In this document: one piece after another, positions 1 to 45,002 of the stretch | Position numbering within the stretch: the first letter of the stretch is position 1 | How the letters are laid out: each line of letters begins with the position of its first letter | NCBI RefSeq assembly: GCF_000721175.1 | Contig: NZ_JOEZ01000017.1 | Coordinates: forward strand, 49,868 to 113,867 | Source of the DNA: Streptomyces anulatus | GTDB taxonomy: Bacteria; Actinomycetota; Actinomycetes; Streptomycetales; Streptomycetaceae | DNA: 64,000 bases | Direction: 5' to 3' | The notes under the pieces: model-generated | Seen by the model: the letters and a program-made list of their open reading frames with translations, nothing else | Database searches by the model: none | What the model was told of the DNA's origin: nothing | Position numbers and translations under genes: made by a program

Positions 1-1300
1 CGATGTGCAGGTTGCTGATGGTCGGTTCCGCGACCAGGGCGTCGATGAGCGCCTCGTCCTCGGTGACCGCTGTCAGGACCAGCGTGTCGCGCAGCGGCGC
101 GATGCCGTCGGCCCGGGTCCACGGGGCGATCCACACACAGGGGAAGGGCATCTCGGCGCCGAGCTGCGGGGCGTCGGCCGCGTCCAGCTGGTGGACCGCG
201 GCGCGCAGCACCGCACTGCCGTCGCCGAGTTCGTCGACGAAGCCGGTGCCCCCGAGCCATGCCCTGGTCCCCCGGGCGCGTTCGAGCACATAGGTCTCCA
301 GTGCCCGCGCGGACTTGGCCGACTGGACCGGCAGGCACGCCTTCTCGTCGGAGGGAGGCAGGCTCGGCAGGGCGGCCAGCCGCTCCGCGACCGCACCGGC
401 CAGCGGGGCCGGGTCGCCTTCCAGGAGCACCGCGGTGGCGTTGACGCATCCGGTGCCGCCGTGCCGTACGACCGAGTCGACGATCATGTCGAGGTGCTCG
501 CGCCAGTCGGTGCCGGCGGTCAGCAGGATCTTCGAGCGGCCCGGCCGCAGCGACAGCACGCCCGGGTCGTCGGCGTACTGCCGGATGATCTCGTCGCCCC
601 CGTAGGCGAGGTCGGCCCCCCTCAGGATGGCGTCGGCCGCTTCGTGCCCACTGGGCAGCAGTGCCACCTGGCCGTCCCCGAACCCGGCCTCGCGCAGGGC
701 GAGTACGAGTCGGTGCGCGGTGAACGGCTCCCGGGCCGAGGGGCGCACGGCGACCCGGTACCCGAGGGCCAGGGCTTCCGGCCAGAAGCCGTGGGTGCCG
801 GGGTGGTTGCCGGGCACGTGTACCGCCAGGACCTCGCCCCGCCGGGTCCACAGTGCCTGCCCGGTGCGGGCCAGCGGATCACGCCAGTCGGAGACGGCGC
901 CGTCGGGCCGTGCGAACAGGACGCTGCGGTAGGACTGGCCGACGCGTTCCGCGCAGGTGCGGGTGGCGGTGCGCACGACGTTGACGGGCAGCCCGGAGAC
1001 CCGGGTGACCGCCTGCTCGTACTCCTGGGGCGAGAAGCCTCCCAGAGTGGCCGTCCGGAACAGTTCACCGGCCCTGGCCAGTGCCGCCGCCCGCTCCGGG
1101 GCGGGCAGCGGGGCCGCGCCGCGCAGCGCCTTCATCGTCCGGTTGACGAACAGGGCGGGGGCCAGGCTCATCTCCGCCAGCGGTGCACCGGTGACGTCCA
1201 GGATCTGCTGGCGGTTGTGCGTGCGGTAGGCGCCGGACGGTCCGAGGGCGTCCAGCACGGGCACCTGGGGGTTGGAGTCCTCCTGCGGCGCGGTTCCCAT
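1..1300 (-). CDS. LuxC-like acyl reductase (aldehyde dehydrogenase fold), C-terminus cut by window edge
   Basis: The reading frame opens at ATG 1300, which overlaps the TGA of the upstream LuxE-like gene, and stays open to position 1. The 433 codons present are therefore incomplete at the C-terminus. The last visible residues include PTISNLH, typical of the C-terminal part of LuxC-like reductases. LuxC-family enzymes take an activated acyl group onto a cysteine and reduce it with NADPH to an aldehyde. The luxE-luxC coupling suggests the pair reduces a carboxylic acid, and beside phz genes the best guess is a phenazine carboxylate, as proposed for EhpF/EhpG of Pantoea D-alanylgriseoluteic acid. 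The substrate is inferred. Confidence 0.72.
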   Translation of the reverse strand, partial: MGTAPQEDSNPQVPVLDALGPSGAYRTHNRQQILDVTGAPLAEMSLAPALFVNRTMKALRGAAPLPAPERAAALARAGELFRTATLGGFSPQEYEQAVTRVSGLPVNVVRTATRTCAERVGQSYRSVLFARPDGAVSDWRDPLARTGQALWTRRGEVLAVHVPGNHPGTHGFWPEALALGYRVAVRPSAREPFTAHRLVLALREAGFGDGQVALLPSGHEAADAILRGADLAYGGDEIIRQYADDPGVLSLRPGRSKILLTAGTDWREHLDMIVDSVVRHGGTGCVNATAVLLEGDPAPLAGAVAERLAALPSLPPSDEKACLPVQSAKSARALETYVLERARGTRAWLGGTGFVDELGDGSAVLRAAVHQLDAADAPQLGAEMPFPCVWIAPWTRADGIAPLRDTLVLTAVTEDEALIDALVAEPTISNLHI

Positions 1301-2400
1301 CAGTAGACCCCTTCGATGACGGCCTCGTCCTCGAAGCGCTCCACCGGGGCGATCCCGGCGGCCGAGTCGCCGATACGGCCGTCGGGTGCGGCCACGCGGA
1401 TCGCGGTGTCGCGTTCCAGGTTGTTGGGCAGCAGCAGCGCCTTGCTGACGTGGTGCATCACCACCTGGCCCCGTCGGCCGTACGCGACGGGAGCGCCGCT
1501 GTGCGGGTCCACCACCTGGAAGGTGATGTACGGCGAGAAGGTGTCGAAGACACAGGGCTCGCCCAGGGGGGTGCCGTGCCGCTGGCCGGCGATGCCGAGG
1601 ATCATCGTGCTGCCGTAGTGGCCGTACAGAACGGTGTCGGGAAAAATGTCCGTACGGTACAACTGCTCGGTGTCGGCGTCCATCTGGGTGCCGCCCCAGC
1701 GGATCGCCCGGACCTTCTCGTTGACGAGTTCGACCAGGTCCTCGCGCTGGGCGATGCGCTCCAGCAGCGGCGGGGTCACCGTCATCACGCCGATGGGCTG
1801 CGTCCGCAGGATGTGTGCGGCCTGGTCGACGACGTGCTCGGCGTAGGCGTTCGCCTGTGCTCCCCTGCCCTCGGCGATGAGCCGCTTGACCCAGCGGGGG
1901 TCGAGGTCGACCTGGAAGCCGTACCGGCCGTGGGTGACCGCGGAGCGGCGGAATATCTCCCCGACGATGTGCGGGCCCGACGGGGTGATCCCCAGCCAGT
2001 CGGCGCCGCGCGGGAATCCGTGCACGTCCAGGTTGGCGTTGCTCCAGTCGACCAGCTTGTCCAGCCAGTCGCGCGGGCAGACCACGCGCTTGGGGGCGCC
2101 GGTGGTGCCGCCGCTCTCGAAGACCCCGACGATGTCCGGGTGCTCGCCGTAGCCACGCGGTACGAGGTCCGCGGCGGGCACGTCACGCAGTTCGTTGGCG
2201 ACATTGGGGAACAGCGTCAGGTCGTCGTACCCCTTGACGTCCGTGAGCGGGTCGAACTCCAGGGAAGCCGCCCGCCGGAGCCAGAACGGGCTGCCGGTCG
2301 CGGGGGTGAAGTGCCAGCGCATCGCCGCCCGGACGAGCTCGTCCGGGTCCGGCTCCGCGTCGTGGGGTAGATCCAGGGGGGAGAGCTCTGCGCGCGCCAC
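1300..2400 (-). CDS. LuxE-like acyl-protein synthetase / acid-adenylating enzyme (EhpF-like)
   Basis: This 366-residue protein belongs to the ANL-type LuxE/EhpF group. It has a Ser/Gly/Thr-rich P-loop ESGGTTGAPKR and a YGHYGST segment in the adenylate-binding region. GTG 2400 is chosen because AAGGAGGAAAC lies directly upstream; an in-frame ATG further upstream at 2604 has no Shine-Dalgarno. Family members activate a carboxylate as acyl-AMP and pass it to a reductase. The stop overlaps the LuxC-like start (TGATG), so the two should be co-translated. In this context the likely substrate is a phenazine carboxylic acid, but a fatty acid cannot be excluded from sequence alone. Confidence 0.75.
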   Translation of the reverse strand: MARAELSPLDLPHDAEPDPDELVRAAMRWHFTPATGSPFWLRRAASLEFDPLTDVKGYDDLTLFPNVANELRDVPAADLVPRGYGEHPDIVGVFESGGTTGAPKRVVCPRDWLDKLVDWSNANLDVHGFPRGADWLGITPSGPHIVGEIFRRSAVTHGRYGFQVDLDPRWVKRLIAEGRGAQANAYAEHVVDQAAHILRTQPIGVMTVTPPLLERIAQREDLVELVNEKVRAIRWGGTQMDADTEQLYRTDIFPDTVLYGHYGSTMILGIAGQRHGTPLGEPCVFDTFSPYITFQVVDPHSGAPVAYGRRGQVVMHHVSKALLLPNNLERDTAIRVAAPDGRIGDSAAGIAPVERFEDEAVIEGVY

Positions 2401-2648
2401 GTTTCCTCCTTCGCTTCCGGCGGGGCCCGCGGCCCCGCCGGCCGGGCCTGAGCCGAACTGACGGCTTCGGGCAGTCCACCACCCCGACCGCGCGCCCCAC
2501 ATGAGTAGCCACCACTCAAACCGCCCCGGGTGAAAGGGAGTCGGCGGCCCTGAGTAGCGGCGGTTGGGGCGTGGGCGGTCCTCGTACGCTGACCGGCGGA
2601 GCACGCGCCGAGGGCGCGTGGCGGACCGGAAGAGGGAGGCATCTCAGG
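2401..2648. promoter_or_regulatory. Divergent promoter region with TGAGT/ACTCA dyad
   Basis: This 248-base gap separates the leftward LuxE/LuxC pair from the rightward small gene. It contains TGAGT (2502-2506), seven bases, then ACTCA (2514-2518), a perfect spaced dyad. The eight bases TGAGTAGC at 2502 recur at 2551-2558. A related palindrome lies upstream of the OmpR regulator at 40862. A LuxR-type or other dimeric regulator could bind here. This is inferred, and no -10/-35 pair is convincing. Confidence 0.35.
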
Positions 2649-2996
2649 ATGAAGGCCATGATCGCCTGGTGGGATCTGACCGATTCGGCGCATTCCGCGC
2701 TGACGCTGCGCACTTTCCTGCGTGAGGAGGCCGAGCAGCACTGGGCGGACATTCCCGGCCTGCTCCTGAAGGTGTGGGTGTCCGACCCGGAGCGGAACCG
2801 CTGGGGTGCCGTGATGATCTGGGAGTCGAAGGAGGCCGCCGAGGCGGCCGAGCTTCCGCGCAGCGCGGGTGAACTGATCGGCCTGCCACTGGACTTCCGG
2901 GAGTGGTTCGACGTGGAGGCGACCGTCGAGGGGAACCACGCGCTGCCGGGTCTGGGTGGCCTGGGGGTGGCCCTGACCGGTCCGGCGGCCGGCTGA
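2649..2996 (+). CDS. Small YdhR-like (dimeric alpha+beta barrel) protein
   Basis: The 115-residue protein resembles the YdhR mono-oxygenase-like family: a helical PGLLLKVWV segment, then GAVMIWESKEAAEA and a final beta segment with FDVEATVEG. Members are small ferredoxin-fold dimers, some acting as cofactor-free oxygenases or cyclases on aromatic substrates. ATG 2649 is chosen for the GGGAGGC ribosome site ten bases upstream. It is transcribed away from the LuxE/LuxC pair and ends in a strong terminator. A tailoring role in the cluster is possible but not shown; no catalytic residues can be named. Confidence 0.55.
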   Translation: MKAMIAWWDLTDSAHSALTLRTFLREEAEQHWADIPGLLLKVWVSDPERNRWGAVMIWESKEAAEAAELPRSAGELIGLPLDFREWFDVEATVEGNHALPGLGGLGVALTGPAAG

Positions 2997-3003
2997 CGTC
3001 ACG

Positions 3004-3055
3004 CACCGCAAGCCGCCCGCCGCCCCGGACGGGGTGCGGCGGGCGGCTTGCGGTG
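3004..3055. terminator. Bidirectional hairpin terminator
   Basis: A perfect 20-base-pair inverted repeat (3004-3023 with 3036-3055) closes a 12-base loop, directly after the small rightward gene and before the end of the leftward membrane-protein gene. Its position between two converging genes fits a shared terminator. There is no T-tract, as is usual in Streptomyces. Confidence 0.8.
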
Positions 3056-3093
3056 TGCCGGGGCGCGGCTGCGGGAGCGGCGTACGGCTCAGG

Positions 3094-3546
3094 TCATCCG
3101 GCGCGCAGGTGTGCGCGGAGCGCCAGGGTCTGCAGGGACGCGAAGACCGCGACGGGCAGGATCTGCAGCCAGGTCCAGACGAGACCGGTGGTCGTCAGGG
3201 TCAGCCAGTCCAGGGCCAGTGCGGCGAGGCTCAGCAGGATCCAGAAGGCTCCGCCACCGATGACGCCGCGCACCGCACCCGCCGGGAGAGGGCGGAGCCG
3301 GGCGACCACCGCGATGCCCACGCCTGCCAGCAGCATCGCGGCGCCGACGACCGCGACCAGGAAGGTGCCGGGACCGAACAGCTCGCCCAGCGGGGACGCG
3401 GCAGCCAGGTAGATGACACCGACCACGGCCATGCCGGCCGCGTCCATGGCGACGACGCGCCGCAGTCGGCCGCCGGTGGCGCTGTCCGCGGGCGTGCCGG
3501 CGGACGTGGCCGGCCCGCCTGTGGCGGAGGAGGATGTGGGGTTCAT
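3094..3546 (-). CDS. Four-helix integral membrane protein of unknown function
   Basis: The 150-residue protein has a Thr/Ser/Ala-rich N-terminal tail of about 30 residues, followed by four hydrophobic stretches near residues 34-56, 60-82, 90-112 and 118-140. No catalytic motif is visible. The start at ATG 3546 has a GGAG motif upstream. It lies 171 bases downstream of the oxidase at 3718-5115 in the same direction and may share its transcript. I do not recognise the family; it could help movement or tolerance of a redox-active product, but that is speculation. Confidence 0.5.
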   Translation of the reverse strand: MNPTSSSATGGPATSAGTPADSATGGRLRRVVAMDAAGMAVVGVIYLAAASPLGELFGPGTFLVAVVGAAMLLAGVGIAVVARLRPLPAGAVRGVIGGGAFWILLSLAALALDWLTLTTTGLVWTWLQILPVAVFASLQTLALRAHLRAG

Positions 3547-3717
3547 CGACGACTCCAGTGAGGGAGAGGTGTCCCGCCCCGGCGCTCGGGGGATATGGCG
3601 CCGGGACGGGGATCGTGGGCGTCGGCCGCCGGGGCGTGCCGGCGAAGCCATGTCGTCGTCCGCGGGGGGACGGGCTTCGTGGACGCTGCCCGGGAGGGCG
3701 GCGCGGGAGGGGCGGGC

Positions 3718-5115
3718 TCAGCTCCCGGCGGAGGCGCCGTCGCCCGTGGGCGGGATGTTGTAGTTCAGCCGGAAGATGTTCTCGGGGTCGTGGACCGCTT
3801 TGATCGCGCCCAGCCGCTCCAGCGCCTCGGGGGCGTAGGCGGTACGGACCTGCTCCTGGCCCGCGTTCTCGCCATGGCCCATGAAGTTCAGGCTGCTGCC
3901 CGTGGTCCAGGGTCCCAGCGCGTCGAAGAGACGGCGGAGGACCGGCCGGGTGTCCTTCTCTGTGACGCCGAAGAGCAGGGTCACCACGGACAGGATGTAC
4001 TGGGCGTCCCGGTGGGCCACCGCGTTGGGGTGCACGGGCGGCGTGGCCAGCGCTCCGCCCAGGTGCCGCAGCTCCACCACACACGGCACGGTCGCCTCGG
4101 GGCCGGCGTGCTCCAGCACCGTGGCCAGCGCCTCGTCGCCGAACTCCTCGAACAGCGCGACCTCCCGAAGGAACGGCACCGCCACCGGCGGGTCGTCGTG
4201 GATGGAGGCGCTCTCCGCGTACGGCATCTCCCGCAGCACCTCGAAGAGGGCCGGGCCGGCCGTGTCGCGCAGCGGTGCGACCAGCCGCTCGCCCTCCTCC
4301 TGGCTGCCGGTGTAGGCGATCCGTACGTGGTAGACGTGCCGGCCGCGCATCGGCTCGGGCACCTCCGGGTCGTCCGGCATGGGGATGAGCGCGACCGAGG
4401 AGTTCATCTCCTGCGGCAGCCCCTCGGTCCACCGGAGGTACGCCTTGAGGACGTCGGGCGCGGCCTCGGCGTCGTAGAAGATCCCGCCGCCGTACAGCCT
4501 GGCCACCGGCACCAGGTTCATTTCCAGCCGTGTCACGATGCCGAAGTTGTCCCGGCCGCCCAGCAGCGCCCAGTAGAGGTCGGGCTCGCTGTCGGCGGTG
4601 ACGTGGCGCAGACTCCCGTCCGCCGTCACGACGTCCATGCTGCGCACCTGGTCCGACGCGTATCCGAAGGACCGGACCAGAATGCCGATCCCGCCGCCCA
4701 GGACGTAGGAGACGACTCCCACGTGGGGCGCGGAGCCGTTGAGGGGAGCCAGACCGTGCGGGACCGTCTCGGGGATGACCTGCTCGAAGCGGACACCGGC
4801 CTCGACCGTCACCGTGTGCTCGGCGGGGTCCACCTCGACCCCGCTCATCCTGCCGGTCGTGATCAGCAGACCGCCGTCGGCCGGGACCGAGAAACCGTGT
4901 CCGGTAGCCTGCACCGCGACGGGCAGCCCGTGCTCGGCGGCGAAACGTACCGCCGCCTGGACGTCCTCGGCCCGGGTGGCGCCGACGATCACGTCGGGCC
5001 GGTGCTGCACCGCGAGGTTGAACCCGGCCCGCTCCTGGTCGTATCCCTCGTCACCGGGTCGCAGGACAGGGCCCTTGACCTCGGATGCGAGCGTCTCGAT
5101 GTCGTTGTGCTCCAC
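3718..5115 (-). CDS. Berberine-bridge-type FAD-linked oxidase 1
   Basis: This 465-residue protein has the FAD_binding_4 fold and a C-terminal BBE motif (NIFRLNYNI). The ATGHG segment near residue 69 carries the histidine that usually holds FAD covalently. The second attachment cysteine of AknOx- and GilR-type enzymes is absent: the matching stretch reads APHVGVVSYVLGGG. Family members oxidise alcohols, hemiacetals or sugar hydroxyls, or close rings using O2. The start is GTG 5115 with GGAGA eight bases upstream. It is divergent from the WYL regulator, which probably controls it. A paralogue lies at 8861-10300. The substrate is unknown. Confidence 0.8.
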   Translation of the reverse strand: MEHNDIETLASEVKGPVLRPGDEGYDQERAGFNLAVQHRPDVIVGATRAEDVQAAVRFAAEHGLPVAVQATGHGFSVPADGGLLITTGRMSGVEVDPAEHTVTVEAGVRFEQVIPETVPHGLAPLNGSAPHVGVVSYVLGGGIGILVRSFGYASDQVRSMDVVTADGSLRHVTADSEPDLYWALLGGRDNFGIVTRLEMNLVPVARLYGGGIFYDAEAAPDVLKAYLRWTEGLPQEMNSSVALIPMPDDPEVPEPMRGRHVYHVRIAYTGSQEEGERLVAPLRDTAGPALFEVLREMPYAESASIHDDPPVAVPFLREVALFEEFGDEALATVLEHAGPEATVPCVVELRHLGGALATPPVHPNAVAHRDAQYILSVVTLLFGVTEKDTRPVLRRLFDALGPWTTGSSLNFMGHGENAGQEQVRTAYAPEALERLGAIKAVHDPENIFRLNYNIPPTGDGASAGS

Positions 5116-5170
5116 AGCAGATCTCCGTTCGCTTCATTCGGCGATCATGAGTCTGAGGCCGAAACCTGAC

Positions 5171-5184
5171 ACCTGCCGACAGGT
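5171..5184. promoter_or_regulatory. Putative operator between oxidase and WYL regulator
   Basis: A perfect inverted repeat ACCTG-CCGA-CAGGT sits in the 87-base gap between the oxidase start (5115) and the regulator start (5203). Regulators of the YafY/WYL type commonly bind such dyads in the divergent promoter they share with a target gene. The palindrome is seen directly; the regulator-operator pairing is inferred. Confidence 0.5.
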
Positions 5185-5202
5185 ATGCGAGAAACTCGGA
5201 GT

Positions 5203-6249
5203 ATGAAGTTCGACCGGCTGCTGTCCACCCTGCTGATGCTGCAACAGCGCGAGCTGGTTCCGGCCTCCGAGATCGCCGAGCGCCTGGAGGTCTCGGTGCG
5301 CACCGTCTACCGTGATGTCGAGGCGCTGTCCGCGGCCGGCGTGCCGGTCTACGCCGAGCGCGGGAAGTACGGCGGGATCCGGCTCCTTCCCGGCTTCCGC
5401 ACGGACTTGACCGGGCTGACCGCGGACGAGGCGCGGGCCCTGTTCGTGCTGGTCGGGGAGAGCGCGCACTCGGCACTCGGGCTCGACCGTGCCCTCGGTT
5501 CGGCGTTGCGGAAGATGATGGCGGCGCTGCCCGCCCCCCACCGGCCGGCGGCGGAGCTGAGCAGCCGCCGCATCCTGATCGACCCGGACCGGTGGCTGGC
5601 CGGCCCCCGGCCCCAGGACGACCTCGAAGCGCTGCACAGCGCGGTGCTCGCCGACCGGCGGCTGCGCATCGGCTACCGCCACAGCGGCGACACGGAGGTG
5701 AGCTTCTACGCCGTCGATCCCTACGGGCTCGTCTCCAAGGCGGGCACCTGGTACCTCGTCGCCGACCACGGGGGCGAGCCCCGGCTGTTCCGCACCGACC
5801 GGATCTCGGACGCCGTCGTCACCGCCGAGCCGGTGCGCCGCCGCGACGGGGTGGAGCTGACCCGGGTGTGGGAGGAGCTGCGGCGCCAGGTGGAGCACCG
5901 CACCTCGGGGATGCGGGTGGTGGTGCGGGTGCACAGGAAGCGGCTCGACATGGTCAGACGGATCACCGCGGCCAACTTCCGCGGCATGCCGGGGCCGACC
6001 GTGGCGGACGGCGGCGAGGGAGACCGGGACACCGGGCGCCGGGAGTCCGGCCGGCCGGACGAACACGGCGCGCCCCCGGACGACGACGAGTGGCTGACGG
6101 CCGAGCTGGACTACCCGGTGCCCGCCGCCGTCTGCCAGTTGCTCCAGTTCGGCACGGACGTCGAGGTGGTCTCCCCGCCCGAGGCCGTGCGGGAACTGTC
6201 CCTGGCCGTGGCCGGCCTCCGCGAGCTCTACGAGGAGCGCACGGTCTGA
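5203..6249 (+). CDS. HTH_11/WYL-domain transcriptional regulator
   Basis: The 348-residue protein starts with a winged helix-turn-helix (residues 1-60, with the SVRTVYRDVEAL recognition helix) followed by a WYL domain around residues 140-215 (SFYAVDPYGLVSKAGTWYLVA). A charged low-complexity insert, rich in Gly, Asp and Arg, lies near residues 265-295 before the C-terminal WCX-like part. ATG 5203 is preferred over ATG 5185 because the HTH begins immediately. It diverges from the oxidase gene with a palindrome between them. The last 22 bases overlap convergently with the LAL regulator. Probably a local regulator that senses a small molecule; repressor or activator is not decided by sequence. 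Confidence 0.8.
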   Translation: MKFDRLLSTLLMLQQRELVPASEIAERLEVSVRTVYRDVEALSAAGVPVYAERGKYGGIRLLPGFRTDLTGLTADEARALFVLVGESAHSALGLDRALGSALRKMMAALPAPHRPAAELSSRRILIDPDRWLAGPRPQDDLEALHSAVLADRRLRIGYRHSGDTEVSFYAVDPYGLVSKAGTWYLVADHGGEPRLFRTDRISDAVVTAEPVRRRDGVELTRVWEELRRQVEHRTSGMRVVVRVHRKRLDMVRRITAANFRGMPGPTVADGGEGDRDTGRRESGRPDEHGAPPDDDEWLTAELDYPVPAAVCQLLQFGTDVEVVSPPEAVRELSLAVAGLRELYEERTV

Positions 6250-8855
6250 CTGGCGAACGGCCGCTGCCCGAGGTGCTCGCCGAGCACCACCCGTGAGGTG
6301 ACACCGAGCTTGCTGTAGACGCGGTAGAGGTGGTTCTCGATCGTTCGCACGGACACCGTCAGCCGGGCGGCGATCTCCCGGTTGGTCATCCTGGTCGCGG
6401 CCAGCGTCGCCACTTCGTGCTCACGGACGGTGAGCACGGCGCCCTCCGGGTCCGATGCGCGGTCCACCACCGCGGCCCAGCCGGGCAGCGGGGTGCCGGG
6501 ACAGGCGGTGAGGTGCCGTCGGCTCCGCGCGCGTGAGTCGCGGCCCGCCCGGTGGCGTCCGGCGGCCTCCCAGGCCCGGTGTGCCTGCCCGGCGCTCTCC
6601 GCGGCCAAGGGGTACATGCCCAGCCGCGCGAAACCGGCGGCGAGGTCGTCGAGCGCGCCCGCGTCCTGACGGGCCAGTGCCCGGATGTGCCCGGCGCGCA
6701 GTGCGGCGACGGTGCCGGGAGCGAACGGACCGAGCGTGTCCAGGACGGTTTCGGCGCGGTCCGCCGGGCCCAGCCTCGCCATCAGCTGCAGTGCGGCCAG
6801 CGCCGTCGTGCGCCGCCCGGCGGCCGCCGCTCGCCGCGCCACCTCGCCGCACCTGCCCAGTGCGCCGGGGCTGTCGCCCGACCGGCCGAGGACGAGCGCC
6901 TCCTCGAAGCCGGTCCAGTCGTCGGCCAGCGGGTAGGTGACCGCGTGCCTCACGGCTTCCCGCACCTCGATCAGGGTGCGGACCGCTTCGGTCCGCTGAT
7001 CCGACTCGGCCAGTGCCCCGGCGAGCTGGGCGAGGATCCAGGCCCGGGTGGTGAACCAGTCCGGGCCGTCGGGTGCCGACGCGGCGCGGCGCAGCAGCGC
7101 GACGGCTTCCGGCGCCCGGCCCGTCACCCGCAGAAGACGGGCCTGGAGCACATCGGCGCGGATCCGGCGGCGGACGTCCCGGGCCGGGTCCGCGCGGCGC
7201 AGCCGCTCCACCGCATCCCGCGCCCGTGCGAGGTCGCCCGACTCCAGCGCCGCGTGGGCGCTCACCACCCGATGGGCGTGCCGGGCGTCGTCCTGCCAGC
7301 CGTCGACGGGGCAGTGCTCCAGCATCGCGTACGCCGCCGGGGCGTCGCCGAGTTCGGTACGGGCGAAGGCGGCGAGCGGTACGCAGGCCTGGAGCGCCGG
7401 GGCGGTGTACGACTCGCGGGGAAGCGCGTCGCCCGTCCGGGCCACGTCGTCCAGCCGGTCCTGCCACAGCCGGACGGCGCTCTGCGTCCCTCGCACGGAC
7501 CCACGGGGGGCCCGCAGGACCGCCCGGTCCGCGAGTGCGGCGGCCTCCTCGGTCCTGCCGAGCCCACGGGCGAGGTTGTCGACGCGGGCGGCGACCGCGT
7601 CGGGCGTCCGGTCGTCCGCGGCGGCAAGCAGCATCTCCGCCTCCGTGCAGCGTCCCTGCCCGGCCAGGGCACGGCCCAGCGGCAACGCCACGGCGCCGTC
7701 CGGGGCCCGGTCCTCCGCGGCGCTCCCGCCGGTGGCGAGCGCGGCCCGGACGAGGCGCTCGGCCGTGGCGTACTCGCGGCTCAGCAGCGCCGCGTCGGCG
7801 GCGTCGAGCAGCGGGCCGGCGGCCGGCCGGCGGCCCGCGTCGAGGCGCAGGCACACCGCCCGGAGCAGACCGGAGCCCGCGTCGGCCGGCAGCCGCGCGG
7901 CCCCGGGCGCCGGTTCCAGCTCGTCGGCGAGGCGGAGCCGCAGCCTGCGGACGGTCAGCGCCGGCAGCGCGGCGACGAGGGCGTGCCCGCTCAGCGGCTG
8001 GCCGAGCCGCAGGCGCAGCCCGTGCTCGCCGGGCTCCGCCACCACGATGCCCCGGCGGTTGAGGCGTTCCGCCGCGGGGCCCAGTTCCATGACCACCGGG
8101 AGGTCGTCCGGCACCGGGCCGGCGAGGCTCAGGACGGCGACCAGTTGTTCCTCGTCGGGGTCCAGGCTTCCCAGCAGGCGCCGAGCCGTTGTGTCCGGAC
8201 GGACGGGCCGGCCGGGCGGCCCGTTCCAGTGCCACAGCCCACGGCACGGGCGGAGTGTGCCGTCGCCCACCGCCCCCTCGGTCAGCTCCGTGAGCAGCAG
8301 GGGGTTTCCGCCGGTCAGGTCCCAGAACCGGGCCGTGGTGTCGGAGGCCACCTGACCGCCCAGCCTGGCGCGCAGGGCACGGGCGGTGCCCGCCCGGTCG
8401 AACGCTCCCACCTCGACCGGACGCAGCAGTCCGTCCCGGCCCAGCGCGTCGACGGCCGCCGGAAGCGTCAGTCCGGCGGGCACCGTGGCGAGCAGCCGCA
8501 CCCGGCCCTCCCGGACCGCCTCGGCCAGCGGCCCGGCGGCAGCGGCGGCGAGCTGGTGGATGTCGTCGACACCCAGCACGGCAGGGGGGTGGCCGCTCTC
8601 CCCGGGCGGGCCGGCGGCCGTGCCGCGCTTCAGGAGGCCGGGCAGCTCGTGGTGTGCCGCGACGGCCCGGTCGGCCGCTCCCGGCGGGTCCGGTGGGCAC
8701 AGCCGCCGCAGCGTCTCCTGGAGGAGCCGGGTCCTGCCCGCCCCGGGCGGCCCGGTCAGCAGCACGCTCCGGCCCCGCTCGGCGAGCCCTTCGATCACCG
8801 CGAGCTCGGACTCCCGGTTCAGTACGGGCCGGCGTGCCGCGGCGTGTGCCGTCAT
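6228..8855 (-). CDS. LAL-type LuxR regulator with AAA-like ATPase domain
   Basis: The 875-residue protein has an N-terminal P-loop region, a long helical repeat region rich in Ala, Leu and Arg, and a C-terminal LuxR HTH (residues about 810-865, with LTVREHEVATLA and NREIAARLTVSVRTIENHLYRVYSKLGV). The Walker A segment reads GPPGAGRT, with arginine where lysine is normal, so ATP use may be altered. Such regulators are often pathway-specific activators. It starts five bases after the stop of oxidase 2 with GAGGAGC upstream, so it is the last gene of the phz operon and may set up feedback on it. Targets are unknown. Confidence 0.82.
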   Translation of the reverse strand: MTAHAAARRPVLNRESELAVIEGLAERGRSVLLTGPPGAGRTRLLQETLRRLCPPDPPGAADRAVAAHHELPGLLKRGTAAGPPGESGHPPAVLGVDDIHQLAAAAAGPLAEAVREGRVRLLATVPAGLTLPAAVDALGRDGLLRPVEVGAFDRAGTARALRARLGGQVASDTTARFWDLTGGNPLLLTELTEGAVGDGTLRPCRGLWHWNGPPGRPVRPDTTARRLLGSLDPDEEQLVAVLSLAGPVPDDLPVVMELGPAAERLNRRGIVVAEPGEHGLRLRLGQPLSGHALVAALPALTVRRLRLRLADELEPAPGAARLPADAGSGLLRAVCLRLDAGRRPAAGPLLDAADAALLSREYATAERLVRAALATGGSAAEDRAPDGAVALPLGRALAGQGRCTEAEMLLAAADDRTPDAVAARVDNLARGLGRTEEAAALADRAVLRAPRGSVRGTQSAVRLWQDRLDDVARTGDALPRESYTAPALQACVPLAAFARTELGDAPAAYAMLEHCPVDGWQDDARHAHRVVSAHAALESGDLARARDAVERLRRADPARDVRRRIRADVLQARLLRVTGRAPEAVALLRRAASAPDGPDWFTTRAWILAQLAGALAESDQRTEAVRTLIEVREAVRHAVTYPLADDWTGFEEALVLGRSGDSPGALGRCGEVARRAAAAGRRTTALAALQLMARLGPADRAETVLDTLGPFAPGTVAALRAGHIRALARQDAGALDDLAAGFARLGMYPLAAESAGQAHRAWEAAGRHRAGRDSRARSRRHLTACPGTPLPGWAAVVDRASDPEGAVLTVREHEVATLAATRMTNREIAARLTVSVRTIENHLYRVYSKLGVTSRVVLGEHLGQRPFASQTVRSS

Positions 8856-8860
8856 CGTGG

Positions 8861-10300: not shown

Positions 10301-10375
10301 CCGAGCGTTCCTTTCCTTCGTTCGTCCGGTCGCCGGGTGCGGTGCCACCGGCCCCGGTGGTGACCGCCGCGCCGC

Positions 10376-10636: not shown

Positions 10637-10670
10637 GTGCCTTCCTGCGGTAGTGACCGGGGGAGCGGAG

Positions 10671-11717: not shown

Positions 11718-11781
11718 TGGTCTCCCTTTCCGCTGTGGGTTGTTCCGTGGCTCGTCCGTGAGCCGGGTCGTTCGGTGCCGG

Positions 11782-13392: not shown

Positions 13393-13461
13393 GGTGTACT
13401 CGCGTTCCGCTTCTCTTGTGTCGGGTGGTGCGCGGCGCCGGTCGGGCGCGGTGGCGAGGCC

Positions 13462-18793: not shown

Positions 18794-18813
18794 TGTAGCG
18801 ACGGGGGAGCCGG

Positions 18814-35175: not shown

Positions 35176-35442
35176 TCAGACGGCGGGGGCGCTGAGGAGG
35201 TTGTTGACCGCGTCGATGAGCTCGCGCGGGGTGACCTCGGCGTGCAGCGCGTCGTCGGCCAGGGTGATGGCGTAGTCGCGCTCGATGCGGCCTCCGGTCT
35301 CCAGCAGCGCGAGCGACTCGTAGCCCAGCTGCTCGAATCCGAGGTCCAGGATCTCGGCGTCGGGGCCCATGTCCTCGTCGGCGCCCGCGACCTCTACGAG
35401 GATGCGCTTGAGGTCTTCGAGGGTGAATGCGCGGACTGTCAC
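35176..35442 (-). CDS. Type II PKS acyl carrier protein
   Basis: The 88-residue ACP has the phosphopantetheine serine in LGYESLALLETGGRIERDY, the standard sequence of aromatic polyketide ACPs. GTG 35442 with AAAGG upstream is chosen. It is separated from KS-beta by 308 bases, which is unusual for a minimal PKS where these genes normally nearly touch. A MITE-like element fills most of the gap. Confidence 0.9.
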   Translation of the reverse strand: MTVRAFTLEDLKRILVEVAGADEDMGPDAEILDLGFEQLGYESLALLETGGRIERDYAITLADDALHAEVTPRELIDAVNNLLSAPAV

Positions 35443-38565: not shown

Positions 38566-39079
38566 GGTTGTCTCTCCTTGATGAGCTCACCCGGGACACC
38601 AGCAGGTCATGGCGAGTTCGATGTCCGACAGGGAAAGCGAAAGGGCGCGGAAGGGGCCGCCGCGCAGCGGCGTGGGTCCTGCGGACGGGTGCGTCCGGCG
38701 GGTAATCGGCGACGTCGGCCGCCCCGACCTCGAAAGGCTTCGGAAACAGTGCACCGGATCCTGTGCACAAGGATCTTCGGTCTCGAATCTCCGTACAAGA
38801 AACCCTCGTGCAGATCAAGGTCAAGTTGAGTCACATGCCGCGCCGAATCTGCAGATGCCTGGAGAACCGGTCAGCCATGTGTCATCGCACCGTCAAATGG
38901 AACTGATCGATTCCGCTGTCCCGTGTCGTCGGCAGGCCTTTTCCCACCGCCCGGGAACTCCGTACCGCGAAGGTTTGGGTGACATGACCGAGGGCCGCCG
39001 GAGATACCTCTCCGACGGCCCTGGGAAAGCGTCTGCGCGGGGCGTGAGCTGCAGCGGTGCGCGCGCCGGGCCGGGTGTC
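38566..39079. promoter_or_regulatory. Promoter region of the polyketide/sugar operon
   Basis: This 514-base gap holds no supported gene. It contains the shared cluster motif (38792-38837) about 230 bases upstream of the cyclase start and, at 38874-38885, GCCATGTGTCAT, which resembles the CATGTGT repeats upstream of the OmpR regulator. The right-hand part also covers the 3' flank of the leftward HTH gene. Confidence 0.5.
38792..38837 (-). promoter_or_regulatory. Shared cluster motif, copy 2 (upstream of PKS operon)
   Basis: On the minus strand the site reads CATGTGACTCAAC, then TGACCTTGA (38823-38815), 12 bases, and TTTCTTGTACG (38802-38792). It is the counterpart of 19423-19466 with identical spacing and the same orientation relative to its operon. 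CTTGAC-CTTGAT forms a direct repeat and includes TTGACC, a possible -35. A common activator for both operons is inferred. Confidence 0.55.
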
Positions 39080-40067: not shown

Positions 40068-40835
40068 TCAGGCCTGCCCCAGCTGGAATCCCACCCCGCG
40101 TACGGTGACGATCCAGTCGCTGGCGCCGAGTTTGGTGCGCAGGCTGCTGACGTGGGTGTCGATGGTCCTTCGCGACCAGACATCTCCCCATACCTGCTGC
40201 ATGATGCGCTTGCGCGGCACGACCGTTCCGGGGTGCGACGCGAGGAGGTAGAGCAGATCGAACTCCTTGCGCGTCACCTCGACCCGCCGTCCGTCGAGGC
40301 TGACTCTGCGCGCACCGGCGTCGATGTTCAGCGCTCCGTGCATGATGACGGGAGCCGCCGGGGAACGTGGCTGCGCGCGGCGCATGACCGCGTCCATCCG
40401 GGCCATTAACTCCCTGAAGCCGTACGGCTTGACGAGGTAGTCGTCCGCTCCGGCCTGGAGGCCGAGCACCCGGTCCAGCTCCGTCCCCCTGGCCGTGACC
40501 GCGATGACCGGCAGCGATCCCGCCGAGCGCACCCGGCGGCACACCTCCAGGCCGTCGAGGTCGGGCAGTTCGAGGTCCAGGAGCACCAGGTCGACGCCTT
40601 CGAAGGCGTTCAGCGCGGCCAGTCCGGACTCCGCCCGCTCGACCTCATGACCGTGGCGCCGCAGCCTCCCCATGAGCAGCTCCGCGTCCGCCGTGTCACT
40701 CTCCACCACGAGGACCCGCCAGGTGGTGGACGGGGCCGGCGCTCCGGGTATACGGGCCCGGGTCCCGGTCTCGGCCGTATCCGGCGGACGCTTCCCCGCC
40801 GTGGGCCGATAGGAATCCGTCAGGTCTGCACGCAT
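40068..40835 (-). CDS. OmpR-family response regulator, JadR1/LanI/LndI-like, with TTA codon
   Basis: The 255-residue protein has a receiver domain (phospho-acceptor Asp in VLLDLELPD, Thr in VTARG, Lys in LVKPYG) and a C-terminal winged helix (TRKEFDLLYLLASHPGTVV and RTIDTHVSSLRTKLG). One of the two N-terminal metal-binding acids is replaced: VVES instead of VVED or VVDD. Angucycline clusters are typically activated by such atypical regulators. The Leu codon at 40409-40407 is TTA, so translation should need the bldA tRNA. ATG 40835 with GGGGGAGA is preferred over the adjacent GTG 40838. No sensor kinase is nearby. Probable cluster activator. Confidence 0.88.
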   Translation of the reverse strand: MRADLTDSYRPTAGKRPPDTAETGTRARIPGAPAPSTTWRVLVVESDTADAELLMGRLRRHGHEVERAESGLAALNAFEGVDLVLLDLELPDLDGLEVCRRVRSAGSLPVIAVTARGTELDRVLGLQAGADDYLVKPYGFRELMARMDAVMRRAQPRSPAAPVIMHGALNIDAGARRVSLDGRRVEVTRKEFDLLYLLASHPGTVVPRKRIMQQVWGDVWSRRTIDTHVSSLRTKLGASDWIVTVRGVGFQLGQA

Positions 40836-40983
40836 CACAGTCTCCCCCTTCGAAACGGTCTACTCAGCTGAGTCAGGACCCACGGGAAGCAAGGACGCGT
40901 CGGTCGCCGACGCCGACGGACCGGAGTCGTCGAACCTGACTTACACAACACGGGCCCGGCGCGAAGTATCACGCGCTGCGCGG

Positions 40984-41358: not shown

Positions 41359-42975
41359 TCAGCCGAAGAGACCCTTGATGTGCTCGGGCGCCTCGGTCCT
41401 GCCCCACTCCAGGGTGCTGGTCATGAGTGCGGGCGTGGCCTCGAAACAGCGGTTCTCCGGCGCCCCCAGCTCGAACGGCGCGGGCAGCGCCTCGGTCTCC
41501 CTGATCCGGGCCAGGATCAACTGCGCCGCCCGCGCGGCCGGCACCTCACCGGACTCGACCTGTTCGCAGAGCTTCCTGGTGAAGGTCAGGAGCCCGCCTA
41601 TGTCCTTGCCGACGGGGTCCGGGAGCCCCGGCGTGCTGGTCTTCTCCAGGTCGCGCAGTACCTGGTCGTCCCGGTTCTCCTGGTAGGCCCGGTAGGCACG
41701 TTCCAGCGTCATCGTGGGCATGATGCTCGTCGCCTTCCAGACCCGGGAGACCGCGTTCCACAGCTCGTAGTCGCGGAAGCCGACGAAGGAGCTGTAGACG
41801 AGGTCGTCGTGCACGTCGTACAGACCCTGCTGAAGGCGGTCGATGTAGGCGAACCGCTCGGTGGACCAGTCGCCGTCGCGGGATGCCTCGATCAGGCGCC
41901 AGGCCAGCGAGTTGACGACCTCGAAGGTGTTGGTCAGGCCGCGTGAGTAGAGCGCGTCGATGAACCCCGCGGCGTGCGCGGTGAGGCAGTAGCGCTCGCC
42001 GACCGTCTGCGTGGCGGAGTACTGGAGCCTTCCGGTCCCGACCCAGGGCCGTACCGCCCTGGCGCCGGTGAACTGCTCCGCGATCTGCGGGAACCGGGCC
42101 AGGAACGCGTCGAACTCCTCCTGCGGCGACCCCTCCGGCTTGGGGAAGACACGCTCGTCCAGCGTCAGTCCCACGCTGCACAGCGGACTGAGCGCTCCCT
42201 CGTGGTTGTCGAACGGGATCACCCACAGCCAGCCACCGTCGAAGACATGGTGCAGCGTGCCGTTGTGCCAGGGGCTGGGCTGCTTGTGGGCGGCCGCGGC
42301 CGCGGTGTCGTCGAAGGGCGTGACGCCGATCATGTGTGTGAACAGCGTCCGCGAGTGGTGCCGGGCCCGGGTCGGTTCCTCACGCAGACCGAACTTCTCC
42401 GCGACCGGCGAGCGGAAGCCGCTGCCGTCCACCAGGTACTCGGCCCTGAACTCCTCGCCCCGGTCCGACCGGAGCACCACTCCGTCGGCACCGGTCCCGA
42501 TCTCCTGGATCCTGGTGGCGAGCCGGACGTCCGCACCGTGGCTGACGGCCACGTTGAACAGGTAGGCGTCCGTGTCCTGCCGGAACAGATGGCTTTCGGT
42601 CCGCTGCCATTCGGGGACGACCAACTGGTTGATCTGCTCCGGATCCTGGGGCTTTCCCTCCTGGTGATAGACGAAGCCGAAGTTCTGCTTGCGTCCGCTC
42701 ATCGGGGAGATCTTGTCCTGGATGCCGCGGAAGCTGGCGAGCGGCGCGATCTCGGGAACCTCGTAGCGCTCGGCGATGATCCTCGTCATCGTCGAGGTGT
42801 ACGGAATGGTGGACTCCCCGACCGCGAAGCGCGGGTGGACCCCGGCGTCGATCAGCAGCACCTTCACACCGTTGCGGGCCAGCACGGCCGCCAGTACCCC
42901 ACCGGCCATACCGGCGCCGAGCACCGCGACGTCGTACCGCTCGCCGTCCCGCATGTCGTTCTCCGTCGTGTTCAC
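41359..42975 (-). CDS. Halogenase-like FAD-dependent monooxygenase
   Basis: The 538-residue flavoprotein has GAGMAGGVLAAVL (FAD GxGxxG), GESTIPYTSTM and WLWVIPF, the WxWxIP motif of flavin-dependent halogenases. The FxxPxxSxG motif is degenerate (ALSPLCSVG, Ala for Phe), so halogenation is not certain; hydroxylation is possible. GTG 42975 has AAAGGTGAACT upstream. A flavin reductase in the same operon (44484) would supply FADH2. It may chlorinate or hydroxylate the phenazine or the polyketide. The carboxyl end (ETEALPAPFELGAPENRCFEATP) shows no extra domain that I recognise. Confidence 0.75.
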   Translation of the reverse strand: MNTTENDMRDGERYDVAVLGAGMAGGVLAAVLARNGVKVLLIDAGVHPRFAVGESTIPYTSTMTRIIAERYEVPEIAPLASFRGIQDKISPMSGRKQNFGFVYHQEGKPQDPEQINQLVVPEWQRTESHLFRQDTDAYLFNVAVSHGADVRLATRIQEIGTGADGVVLRSDRGEEFRAEYLVDGSGFRSPVAEKFGLREEPTRARHHSRTLFTHMIGVTPFDDTAAAAAHKQPSPWHNGTLHHVFDGGWLWVIPFDNHEGALSPLCSVGLTLDERVFPKPEGSPQEEFDAFLARFPQIAEQFTGARAVRPWVGTGRLQYSATQTVGERYCLTAHAAGFIDALYSRGLTNTFEVVNSLAWRLIEASRDGDWSTERFAYIDRLQQGLYDVHDDLVYSSFVGFRDYELWNAVSRVWKATSIMPTMTLERAYRAYQENRDDQVLRDLEKTSTPGLPDPVGKDIGGLLTFTRKLCEQVESGEVPAARAAQLILARIRETEALPAPFELGAPENRCFEATPALMTSTLEWGRTEAPEHIKGLFG

Positions 42976-43046
42976 AGTTCACCTTTCGAGGATGGACAGA
43001 CCGGAAGGGGCATGACCCGATTCCGTGGTGCTGGGGGGCAGGGCCC

Positions 43047-44396
43047 CTAGGGGAGGGCGACGGGGTCCTTGCCGTCGGCCGTGCTCCCTCCCGTCGACGG
43101 CAGCCGGAGCTTGCGCATCTCCTCCTCCGCCGTGTGTTCGACCCGCTTCATGGACATGCGCAGCAGGGGCGGTGCCATCAGCGAGGTGAGCACCGCGACG
43201 AGGACGACGACGGAGTACATCTCGACGGTCAGCAGGCCGATCCGGACGCCGATCATGGCGATGATCACTTCGATCACCCCGCGGGCGTTCATCCCGGCGC
43301 CCAGGGCCGTCGACTCCCACCGGTTCATCCCGCTGAGCGTTCCGCCGAGGTAGGCTCCGGCGAATTTCCCCAGGACCGCGATGCCGAAGACCGCGAGGCC
43401 CCAGACCGCGACCTGCGGATCGGCGAGCGCGCCGAGGTCCATGCGCAGTCCCGCCGTGGCGAAGAAGAGGGGTGCGAGGACCGCGATCACCGTGATGTTC
43501 AGCGGATGCAGAGCCGCCGTGTCGATGTCCTTGGACGAACCGATCAGCACCCCGCACAGGAAGGCGCCGAAGACCGCCTCCAGTCCGAGCGCCTGTGCTC
43601 CGGCCGCGGACAGCATGATCAGGACGACCGCGGTCGTGACGGCCCGGCCCGGCGTCCCGGAGCGGGTGGCCGCGCGCATGGCCGCGCGTACGACGTACCG
43701 GCCGACGGTCATGGTGAGGACCAGGAGCACCGCCATGCGGGTGAGCGCGAGCGTCACCTCGCCGGTGTGCAGTCCGGTGGTGGCCATGGCCGTGATGAGC
43801 GAGACCAGGAGCCAGCCGACGGCGTCGTCGACGGTTCCCGCCACCAGGATCATCTGGCCCACGTTCCGGTGGATGAGCTTCATGTCCAGCAGCGTCCTGG
43901 CGATCACCGGGATCGCGCTGACGCACATCGCCACGCCCACGAAGAGCGCGAAGACCGTGGGGTCGGCTCCCTCCGCGCGCAGTTCCCCGGGAAGCGCGAA
44001 GCCCAGCCAGACGCCGAGGACCAGGGGCACGATCAGGCCCGCGGCGCTGACCACCGCTGCCCGTCGGCCCTGACGGCGCACCAGCTTGAGGTCCAGGTGC
44101 ATACCGGTGAATCCGACGAGCAGGACGACTCCGAACTGGCCCACCGCGTCCAGCAGATGCATCTGGGCGGCATCCTGCGGGAACAGCCCCTGCTCCGCCT
44201 GCGGAACCACGCGGGCCAGCAGCGACGGCCCGAGCAGCACACCGGCGGTCAGCTCCCCCACGATGGACGGCATGCCCAGCCGCCGGGCGAGCCGCCCCAG
44301 CAGCAACGCCGCCGCGAGCAGGACGCCGATCTGGAGCAGCAGGACCGTCAGCGCGTCGTGCGGAATGGGAACGACCACGGCGGCCGTCTGTGTCAT
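43047..44396 (-). CDS. CPA2-type monovalent cation/proton antiporter
   Basis: The 449-residue membrane protein has about 12 helices, an N-terminal GRLARRLGMPSIVGELTAGVLLGPS and the ion-binding GTVDDAVGW motif of CPA2 (KefB/NhaS-like) antiporters. The hydrophilic tail of about 40 residues carries no TrkA-type domain. AAGGAGTG precedes ATG 44396. Such antiporters occur in several antibiotic clusters and may help export or tolerance of redox-cycling or ionophoric products. It sits between flavin reductase and halogenase-like genes, so it belongs to the cluster. Confidence 0.85.
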   Translation of the reverse strand: MTQTAAVVVPIPHDALTVLLLQIGVLLAAALLLGRLARRLGMPSIVGELTAGVLLGPSLLARVVPQAEQGLFPQDAAQMHLLDAVGQFGVVLLVGFTGMHLDLKLVRRQGRRAAVVSAAGLIVPLVLGVWLGFALPGELRAEGADPTVFALFVGVAMCVSAIPVIARTLLDMKLIHRNVGQMILVAGTVDDAVGWLLVSLITAMATTGLHTGEVTLALTRMAVLLVLTMTVGRYVVRAAMRAATRSGTPGRAVTTAVVLIMLSAAGAQALGLEAVFGAFLCGVLIGSSKDIDTAALHPLNITVIAVLAPLFFATAGLRMDLGALADPQVAVWGLAVFGIAVLGKFAGAYLGGTLSGMNRWESTALGAGMNARGVIEVIIAMIGVRIGLLTVEMYSVVVLVAVLTSLMAPPLLRMSMKRVEHTAEEEMRKLRLPSTGGSTADGKDPVALP

Positions 44397-44483
44397 GAGG
44401 GCACTCCTTCGTCGGCTCTGGTCGTCGCGGTGGGGCTGCCGGTCGGGGCGGATGCCTTCCGGGGCCCGGGTTTCGGGGGCCCG

Positions 44484-45002
44484 TCAGACAGCGGCGAGGA
44501 GGGCGCCCATCGCGCCGCGGAAGAAGACCAGCGGCCGACGGTCCCGCTCCGGGACGTCCAGGTCGACCACCTCACCCACGAACACGGTGTGGTCGCCCCC
44601 CTCGAAGGTGTTGACGAGCCGGCAGGAGAGGTAGGCCAGAGCGTCGCTGAGCACGGGCACCCCGGTCGCCGAAGGGCGGTGCGGGACCTCCTGCAGCGAG
44701 GCGGTGCTCCGCCCGGCGAAGGCTCGTGCCAGCGGCTCGTGCTGGGCGGCCAGGAAGTTCACGGCGTAGGCCTGGCTGTCCTCGACCACGTCCCGCAGCC
44801 GCGACTTGTGGTGCAGGCAGAACAGCACCAGCGGCGGGTCGAGGGAGACGGACGTGAAGGAGTTGACCGTCGTACCGGCCGCCTGCTCGCCGCGCCCGCT
44901 GGTGATCACCGTCACGCCGGTCACGAAGTGGCCGCACACCGCGCGGAGCAGCTCCGTCTCGACCGGCGCGGTGGAGCTCGAACTCTGGCTGTCTGACGGC
45001 AT
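44484..45002 (-). CDS. Flavin reductase (HpaC/SnaC-like)
   Basis: The 172-residue FMN/FAD-binding split-barrel protein has VCGHFVTGVTVIT, GTTVNSFTSVSLDPPLVLFCLHHKSR and DHTVFVGEVVDL. It reduces free flavin with NAD(P)H for a two-component oxygenase or halogenase. ATG 45002 has AGGTGA upstream; an in-frame GTG lies at 45011. First gene of the operon whose last gene is the halogenase-like enzyme, its likely partner. It marks the right-hand edge of the cluster. Confidence 0.88.
   Translation of the reverse strand: MPSDSQSSSSTAPVETELLRAVCGHFVTGVTVITSGRGEQAAGTTVNSFTSVSLDPPLVLFCLHHKSRLRDVVEDSQAYAVNFLAAQHEPLARAFAGRSTASLQEVPHRPSATGVPVLSDALAYLSCRLVNTFEGGDHTVFVGEVVDLDVPERDRRPLVFFRGAMGALLAAV

Follow-up and report, generated by a model that had tools for sequence, protein, structure and literature searches.

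A 64,000-nucleotide stretch of DNA from Streptomyces anulatus (assembly GCF_000721175.1, contig NZ_JOEZ01000017.1), referred to here as the window, carries two neighbouring sets of biosynthetic genes: a phenazine pathway, and an angucycline-type, type II polyketide synthase (PKS) pathway with genes for an aminodeoxysugar and a JadR1-like regulator. The window comprises contig positions 49868-113867 and runs to the contig end; the genome, of 8.4 Mb, is in 166 contigs. Genes were called with a frame-composition gene caller and family searches, and their start codons are approximate. An earlier note, made from the letters of the window, placed the locus at 1-45002. Its right edge holds: past 45002 come a peptidoglycan-binding protein, further genes, and then genes of myo-inositol catabolism. 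The left edge has to be moved, as the locus extends some 7.4 kb beyond the window (contig 42452-49739; window about -7415 to -128). Genes for an aldo/keto reductase (AKR), a thioesterase (TE), a ketosynthase-acyl carrier protein fusion (KS-ACP), an ACP, a LysR regulator, a lipocalin-like protein and a methyltransferase of family PF04672 lie there, and recur with the locus elsewhere.

The two halves and the island between them

PhzB, C, D, E, F and G are all present, in one collinear operon on the minus strand (19302-13462), just as the earlier note had described. After phzG, genes on the same strand encode an adenylation enzyme (Lig), a KAS III-like protein (KAS3), a carrier protein (ACPz), an FAD oxidase of PCMH type and a regulator of LuxR type; past the regulator come a second FAD oxidase and an EhpF/EhpG pair. 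The names EhpG and LuxC, as applied to the product of 2-1300, are tentative. In the lists, percentages are identities to counterparts at related loci, chiefly those of Streptomyces sp. TRM49041, Streptomyces sp. yr375, S. caatingaensis and the genome G136 (such labels are our own; G074 and G002 are apparently one strain, yr375).

2-1300, minus: EhpG-like acyl reductase (LuxC/aldehyde-dehydrogenase type); PF00171, E 7e-11; 76-85% in TRM49041, S. caatingaensis, G136 and yr375
1300-2400, minus: EhpF-like adenylating enzyme, phenazine tailoring; EhpF structures 3l2k/3hgu, E 8e-81; 85-89% in the four related loci
2649-2996, plus: ydhR-like small protein, phz-linked; PF08803 below cut-off; 41-80% in a number of PhzE loci
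3718-5115, minus: FAD (PCMH-type) oxidase 1; NF041226/NF041227, below cut-off
5203-6249, plus: WYL regulator; PF13280; kept in S. caatingaensis and G136
6228-8855, minus: large LuxR-type regulator; C-terminal LuxR-type matches below cut-offs; G136 52%, S. caatingaensis 42%
8861-10300, minus: FAD (PCMH-type) oxidase 2; nearest structure mitomycin radical oxidase 9r43, 369 bits; EncM, 165 bits
10376-10636, minus: carrier protein ACPz; PF00550
10671-11717, minus: KAS III-like acyltransferase (ChlB3/CerJ/DpsC group); 7vyu, ChlB3, DpsC, CerJ; Cys-His-Asp of ChlB3 and CerJ kept in the window and the four related loci
11782-13392, minus: stand-alone amino-acid-type adenylation enzyme, Lig; TIGR01733 above cut-off (370 versus 317 bits); 8k4r, 6akd
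13462-14106, minus: phzG; NF038138 above cut-off
14174-15010, minus: phzF; TIGR00654 above cut-off
15034-16938, minus: phzE, anthranilate-synthase-type fusion; in a clade with yr375, TRM49041 and G136
16935-17558, minus: phzD, isochorismatase-like; 73-78% in related phz loci
17606-18781, minus: phzC; TIGR01358 below cut-off; 70-77% in TRM49041, G136 and yr375
18814-19302, minus: phzB (PhzA/B family); PF03284, E 1e-83; start reset to the ATG at 19302

Together with the left flank, this half has the gene content expected of a streptophenazine-type pathway, a phz core with KS, TE and AKR for chain extension. The KS protein has the form KS-(degenerate acyltransferase)-ACP, and in the window and the four related loci alike its KS is intact and its acyltransferase (AT) degenerate. 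TRM49041 and yr375 have, in addition, a protein with a degenerate KS and an intact AT, a crotonyl-CoA-reductase-like dehydrogenase and a FadD-like ligase (the last two labelled by eye and from Pfam classes). These alkyl-extender genes were not seen in contig 42452-49739 or window 1-19302, nor in the G136 and S. caatingaensis loci; common to these three loci are the lipocalin-like protein and the PF04672 methyltransferase. Two further loci of the same genome hold related genes. A second EhpF/EhpG-like pair (52% and 47%) lies at C12:219050-221583 (L165), with no phz genes within 35 kb, and a second PhzE-like gene (54%) stands beside an oppositely directed PhzC-like gene (42%) at C16:605600-607435 (L168). 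The nearest solved structure to oxidase 2 is mitomycin radical oxidase; a part in protecting the producer from its own redox-active compound would be in keeping with this.

Between phzB and the 2,3-dehydratase gene is a gap of about 3.9 kb filled by a glycosyltransferase (GT), an NmrA-type reductase and an MFS exporter; both the spacing, given earlier as 4 kb, and the identity of the three genes bear out the earlier description. The sugar genes (31788-23243) and the type II PKS core (38565-33341, in the order cyclase-KSα-CLF-ACP-KR-aromatase) lie beyond.

19725-20900, plus: EryCIII-like glycosyltransferase; PF06722, PF21036; nearest solved structure SnogD, 160 bits; 71-72% in TRM49041 and S. 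caatingaensis
20939-21574, plus: NmrA/SDR-type reductase; PF13460
21654-23153, plus: MFS exporter; TIGR00711, 214 bits, below cut-off of 230; TcmA model, 211 bits, below cut-off
23243-24649, minus: NDP-hexose 2,3-dehydratase; PF03559, E 6e-159
24646-25647, minus: NDP-hexose 4-ketoreductase; sugar epimerase/reductase models below cut-offs
25638-26249, minus: RmlC-type 3,5-epimerase; TIGR01221, 115 bits, below cut-off of 156
26246-26983, minus: sugar N-methyltransferase; PF13649; 73% in S. caatingaensis, unmatched in TRM49041
27052-28173, minus: NDP-hexose aminotransferase; nearest 7b0d, 2oga (presumably DesV) and QdtB 3frk
28170-29753, minus: FAD monooxygenase A; PF01494
29803-30798, minus: RmlB; TIGR01181 above cut-off
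30919-31788, minus: RmlA; TIGR01207 above cut-off
31785-33341, minus: FAD monooxygenase B, angucycline type; nearest structure CabE, 453 bits; PgaE, FlsO1, about 400 bits
33341-34294, minus: aromatase/cyclase; PF10604, two stretches
34360-35145, minus: ketoreductase (KR); FabG family, NF009466 above cut-off
35176-35442, minus: PKS ACP; PF00550
35751-36962, minus: chain length factor (CLF, KSβ); FabF family, 274 bits, below cut-off
36959-38239, minus: KSα; FabF family, 417 bits; 88% in TRM49041
38236-38565, minus: polyketide cyclase; PF04673
41359-42975, minus: flavin halogenase-like enzyme; tetracycline 7-halogenase 7xgb/7v0b, 532 bits; PltM, 321 bits; 83-84% in TRM49041 and S. caatingaensis
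43047-44396, minus: CPA2-type antiporter; PF00999; 72% in S. caatingaensis, unmatched in TRM49041
44484-45002, minus: flavin reductase; HsaB/FerA-like, below cut-offs; 75% in TRM49041

The minimal PKS, KR, aromatase, second cyclase and PgaE-type oxygenase of an angucycline pathway are all here. The closest known system is the mayamycin cluster mry/may (OR345931), with which the window shares the run 2,3-dehydratase, N-methyltransferase, aminotransferase, monooxygenase, RmlB, RmlA, monooxygenase, aromatase, KR, ACP, CLF, KSα and cyclase. This is the operon order of mry5-17, judged by the gene numbers in section 2.4 of PMC10817512 rather than by mry sequences. In the window, a 4-ketoreductase and RmlC are inserted side by side into that order, and the latter (25638-26249) departs from the six sugar enzymes, without a 3,5-epimerase, of mayamycin. 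The regulator and the halogenase-like flavoenzyme stand where mry18 and mry19 would, the identity of mry18 being taken from may18; that the flavoenzyme corresponds to mry19 is a guess. The myo-inositol catabolism genes beyond the right edge (window 56442-63907) include iolD and iolC, both matching their models above cut-off, as well as iolB, iolE and a methylmalonate-semialdehyde dehydrogenase gene.

Distribution of the halves

The earlier note knew of no described cluster that combines the two halves, but such pairs have been published. According to three papers, Streptomyces sp. CNB-091 has a streptophenazine cluster closely linked with a mayamycin cluster and, as in the window, a JadR1-like regulator (PMC9150181); cluster 20 of S. 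globisporus SCSIO LCY30 is described as a hybrid of T1PKS, T2PKS and phenazine types, and that strain gave mayamycins, rabelomycin and streptophenazines as separate compounds (PMC10817512); and about 25 kb of region 8.1 of Streptomyces sp. CS-7 yielded mayamycins in S. albus (PMC9581153). Like the window, all have type II PKS and aminosugar genes beside a phenazine pathway with PKS genes. Compared by description, the window differs in adding a 3,5-epimerase gene to the sugar set, and in a phenazine half with the lipocalin/PF04672 pair and without the alkyl-extender genes. Other papers drawn on are PMC9573744, PMC10221052, PMC4549113 and PMC4012441.

Among 80 PhzE loci, all compared with 45 query proteins, one (TRM49041) pairs phzB-G with the GT, reductase, exporter and sugar genes. 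Five (L053, L055, L065, L066 and L070) were set aside, having deoxysugar genes near PhzE and no match to phzB, F or G. Absence of the PKS half is weak evidence at these loci, because flanks were 10 kb at most and several loci were shorter. The TRM49041 contig holds the complete pair without the N-methyltransferase and antiporter, and with KAS3/ACPz at the far end, on the PKS side; a short SAM-synthetase-like gene and a MetF-like gene, named by eye from N-terminal sequence, adjoin its EhpG (C31:38232-39606, L114/L115), an arrangement also reported for the ID63040 and lomofungin cassette (PMC9150181). The phenazine half occurs alone in yr375 and G136, over 59 and 90 kb, respectively. The gene order of yr375 matches that of TRM49041 except that it lacks three groups: flavin reductase with halogenase, the stretch running from the cyclase to the GT, and MetK with MetF; the JadR1-like regulator stays before phzB. 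S. caatingaensis has the PKS half, the GT and the phenazine tailoring genes; phzB-G are missing from between the GT and Lig (gap site L118, C7:51439-51858); a different contig carries a related phz operon. G219, G075, G027 and G382 have PKS and sugar genes, with no phz in the 20-60 kb examined.

We also surveyed 392 genomes of the genus, the window's own included; among the other KSα matches, the check for phz covered these four loci. KSα matches at E <=1e-205 (at least 73% identity) occur in 102 of the 392, and G136 and yr375 are not among them. Lig at 51% or above is found in six; three of these (51-53%) belong to other clusters and were left out when loci were compared. The GT at E <=1e-80 likewise occurs in six, exceeds 48% only in its own genome and G085 (58%), and is absent from G136 and yr375; a family-wide search of 384 genomes, a sample overlapping the 392, returned its own genome only. 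The GT is present at each of the three loci where this PKS half was seen, namely the window, TRM49041 and (lacking phzB-G) S. caatingaensis, and in neither phenazine-only locus. It belongs with the PKS half; Lig, ACPz and KAS3 belong with the phenazine half. One idea in the earlier note, a hybrid product made through a single shared glycosyltransferase, is thus not borne out.

A covalent hybrid could be made by another route: Lig would load a phenazine acid or an amino-acyl group onto ACPz, and KAS3 would move it to the angucycline aminosugar or aglycone. The parts are there, namely Lig, ACPz and an acyltransferase of the ChlB3/CerJ group with its Cys-His-Asp, and CerJ reportedly acylates a sugar. 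The set is retained with the PKS half in S. caatingaensis despite the missing phzB-G, and TRM49041 has KAS3/ACPz on the side of the PKS genes. The same set, however, occurs in G136 and yr375, at loci without PKS genes, sugar genes or GT and in genomes with no KSα or GT match. KAS3 falls into two subtypes, which occur also without PKS genes and track the phenazine subtype, not PKS presence; and SCSIO LCY30, with its related region, yielded two separate product families (PMC10817512). No phenazine-angucycline conjugate appears in the titles and abstract openings of the matches listed for both classes (7 of 7 and 20 of 35), which does not by itself prove that none exists. A covalent hybrid product is unlikely, this route to it very much so, and its more particular form, a phenazine-angucycline glycoside for which S. 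caatingaensis would draw the acid from its second phz locus, more improbable still. KAS3/Lig as a bridge joining the halves is likewise not favoured, since the set goes with the phenazine half.

The halves might instead be independent clusters that are neighbours by chance and linked neither in function nor in regulation. Neighbouring clusters are frequent in Streptomyces, either half can be found by itself among the relatives, clear joint descent is not seen in the trees, and the candidate operators described below occur at chance frequency. The pair recurs, however, in TRM49041 and the published strains, KAS3/ACPz are interleaved with the PKS half in TRM49041, and yr375 has kept the JadR1-like regulator beside phz without the PKS; we think chance adjacency unlikely. 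The earlier note would have abandoned a joint reading had each half regularly stood alone, here beside an arbitrary neighbour, and had each product been indifferent to loss of the other half. Much of this holds: solitary halves do exist in some relatives, and in related strains mayamycin (PMC9581153) and streptophenazine (PMC9150181) were reportedly made from cloned or refactored clusters without the other half. The neighbour, however, is not arbitrary, since the pairing recurs. The locus is, in our view, probably a recurrent pair of clusters governed by one JadR1-like regulator, each of the two yielding a redox-active product of its own.

A possible shared regulator, its candidate operators and descent

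The features on which a regulatory link would depend are these:

40068-40838, minus: JadR1-like OmpR-family response regulator; PF00072, PF00486; 76-83% in TRM49041, yr375 and S. caatingaensis, at most 52% in G136
38870-38896, minus: candidate operator ahead of the PKS operon, direct repeats in tandem; two matches with 1 mismatch each, overlapping and 11 bp apart
19501-19516, minus: candidate operator between phzB and the GT gene, direct repeat TTGAC-N6-CTGAC upstream of phzB; the window's only exact match

We take Aur1P to be JadR1-like. It is 70% identical to May18 and activates the mayamycin cluster, according to PMC8306873. With E <=1e-50 as the threshold, G000, G001 and G002 each have one copy of the regulator and S. 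caatingaensis has two. Two JadR1-like copies, with scores equal to that of the window's, lie in opposite directions in one cluster at G003:C7:28879-29472 and 33573-34166. For the protein of 40068-40838, the name JadR1-like follows a homologue described in PMC9150181.

A Gibbs search found the repeat before PKS operons and phzB; the matrix used later was built from five sites outside the window, four of them different. (Applied to 17 other PKS promoters, a de novo motif search picked up conserved coding sequence from an upstream gene; a pattern scan took its place.) Within the window, the matrix ranks the phzB/GT site first (18.3), position 62956 second and the PKS-promoter site third. Allowing one mismatch, there are three matches, two of them overlapping, and all are in the phzB and PKS promoters. 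The exact repeat stands in three of 25 phzB promoters (24 and the window's): those of the window, TRM49041 and yr375, the very loci with a JadR1-like regulator seen linked to phz. The repeat before phzB has one mismatch in L039 and two in seven more of the 24; the exact form is missing from the phzB promoters of G136 (two mismatches) and of the S. caatingaensis phz operon (three mismatches), and in S. caatingaensis the matrix picks out sites upstream of the PKS operon and of EhpF. At G219 and G075, two loci in which phz was not found, the repeat also precedes the PKS genes. The regulator would probably bind direct repeats of 11-bp period before the PKS operon and phzB. Co-regulation of the halves is plausible to likely.

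Common descent of the halves was examined with trees. One built from 13 concatenated PKS/sugar proteins sets the window, S. caatingaensis and TRM49041 apart (support 100/96) from five loci without phz, G219, G075, G027, G382 and Spongiactinospora rosea, several proteins being missing in S. rosea and one each in G027 and G382. The phenazine tailoring tree, which has no outgroup and lacks the LuxR protein for two rows, divides {TRM49041, yr375} from {window, S. caatingaensis, G136} (100/100); the same split, again without an outgroup, is given by KS, TE, AKR and KAS3 alone (100/100) and by the rest without these four (99.6/99). PhzE of the window, G136, yr375 and TRM49041 forms a clade (98/96), which the distant phz of S. 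caatingaensis adjoins (90/72). A rooted EhpF/EhpG tree places G136 outside (88.5/70). It is possible that the halves were joined after G136 split off and that the PKS half was later lost in yr375. Joint descent is not shown by these trees, as the rooted EhpF/EhpG tree disagrees and the phenazine tree has no outgroup.

A number of results weigh against a co-regulated pair. The PKS/sugar tree joins the window with S. caatingaensis, not TRM49041 (90.5/81); the rooted EhpF/EhpG tree puts S. caatingaensis, weakly, with TRM49041/yr375 (83.9/71); and the JadR1-like regulator tree is unresolved. S. caatingaensis, in keeping tailoring genes without phzB-G, does what a simple picture does not predict. 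A score of 18.3 is reached by the best site of one in 20 shuffled windows, and the second-ranked site, 62956, is unrelated to the cluster. Three matches with at most one mismatch compare with 2.59 expected, and 35 with two mismatches compare with 42.9; the count being at chance level, only the positions of the matches argue for function. Among 17 other PKS promoters, only three have the repeat with at most one mismatch, and TTGAC resembles a -35 box, too. The phzB counts are partly circular because the motif set included the window, TRM49041 and yr375, and linkage of the regulator in most other phz loci was followed over flanks of 10 kb at most. Finally, the products of the pair in this strain are predictions from gene content. 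The earlier note's other suggestion, two co-regulated redox-active products, is nonetheless likely to be right: the pair recurs, there is one JadR1-like regulator, and a similar repeat, though at chance frequency, precedes both operons.

Predicted products and significance

Gene content, recurrence and the places of the repeats are observations; the chemistry, the sugar configuration, binding by the regulator and the lack of a covalent link between the products are deduced. If there are two separate products, the angucycline half would proceed as follows. The minimal PKS, KR and two cyclases would build a mayamycin-type ring system, which PgaE-type oxygenases and the halogenase-like flavoenzyme would modify. 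The latter may or may not halogenate: it is nearest to tetracycline 7-halogenase, but mayamycin, by the formula in PMC10817512, carries no chlorine. The EryCIII-like GT would attach an N-methylated 3-amino-2,3,6-trideoxyhexose; in a mayamycin-type pathway the bond would be C-glycosidic. As the RmlC-type gene is outside mayamycin's six named sugar enzymes, this aminosugar may be L-configured; the single sugar methyltransferase gene fits one N-methylation or two alike.

In the phenazine half, PhzB-G would make phenazine-1,6-dicarboxylate, and EhpF/EhpG would activate or reduce one carboxyl. The KS-ACP protein, AKR and TE would probably lengthen the carboxyl by a short unit; a short chain is predicted because the half has no alkyl-extender genes. 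The phenazine would then probably receive an amino-acyl group through Lig, ACPz and KAS3. An N-formylglycyl group occurs in some streptophenazines, for which a role of Spz15 is also reported (PMC9150181); to equate Lig with Spz15 is guesswork. The adenylation code of Lig, aligned by eye with PheA, reads DLFSLCLVAK and does not settle the substrate. KAS3 resembles the ChlB3 and CerJ acyltransferases in family and catalytic triad, and differs in being accompanied by an amino-acid-type adenylation enzyme. In the description seen, the lomofungin cluster of S. lomondensis S015 also combines a phz core with an EsmB1-type protein and an aldehyde dehydrogenase, and differs in having no PKS, sugar or GT genes. 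EsmB1-type proteins we presume to be EhpF-like.

Might the phenazine half be an ordinary streptophenazine pathway, and the locus no more than a further copy of the pair in print? The KS with degenerate AT, TE and AKR are ordered as in TRM49041 and yr375, and EhpF (85-89%) and EhpG (76-85%) are closely similar. We infer that the KS/TE/AKR set represents streptophenazine genes, and that TRM49041 and yr375 are of the streptophenazine type. The window, G136 and S. caatingaensis, however, show no alkyl-extender genes and have the lipocalin-like protein and PF04672 methyltransferase instead; KS, TE, AKR and KAS3, taken together, separate {TRM49041, yr375} from the rest. A plain copy is distinctly unlikely.

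Two separate products, then, would be a mayamycin-like compound with a different aminosugar and a short-chain relative of streptophenazine. The one JadR1-like regulator would probably act at the repeats of both the PKS operon and phzB. The pairing itself was already known; added here are a variant with a 3,5-epimerase and without alkyl-extender genes, and relatives that hold single halves. A putative shared JadR1-like regulator, with similar repeats before phzB and the PKS operon, offers a testable reason for the pairing. Streptophenazine was reportedly made once strong promoters preceded the phz cassette (PMC9150181). These promoters were placed near the position of the repeat, and the repeat idea therefore bears on the waking of silent phenazine clusters.

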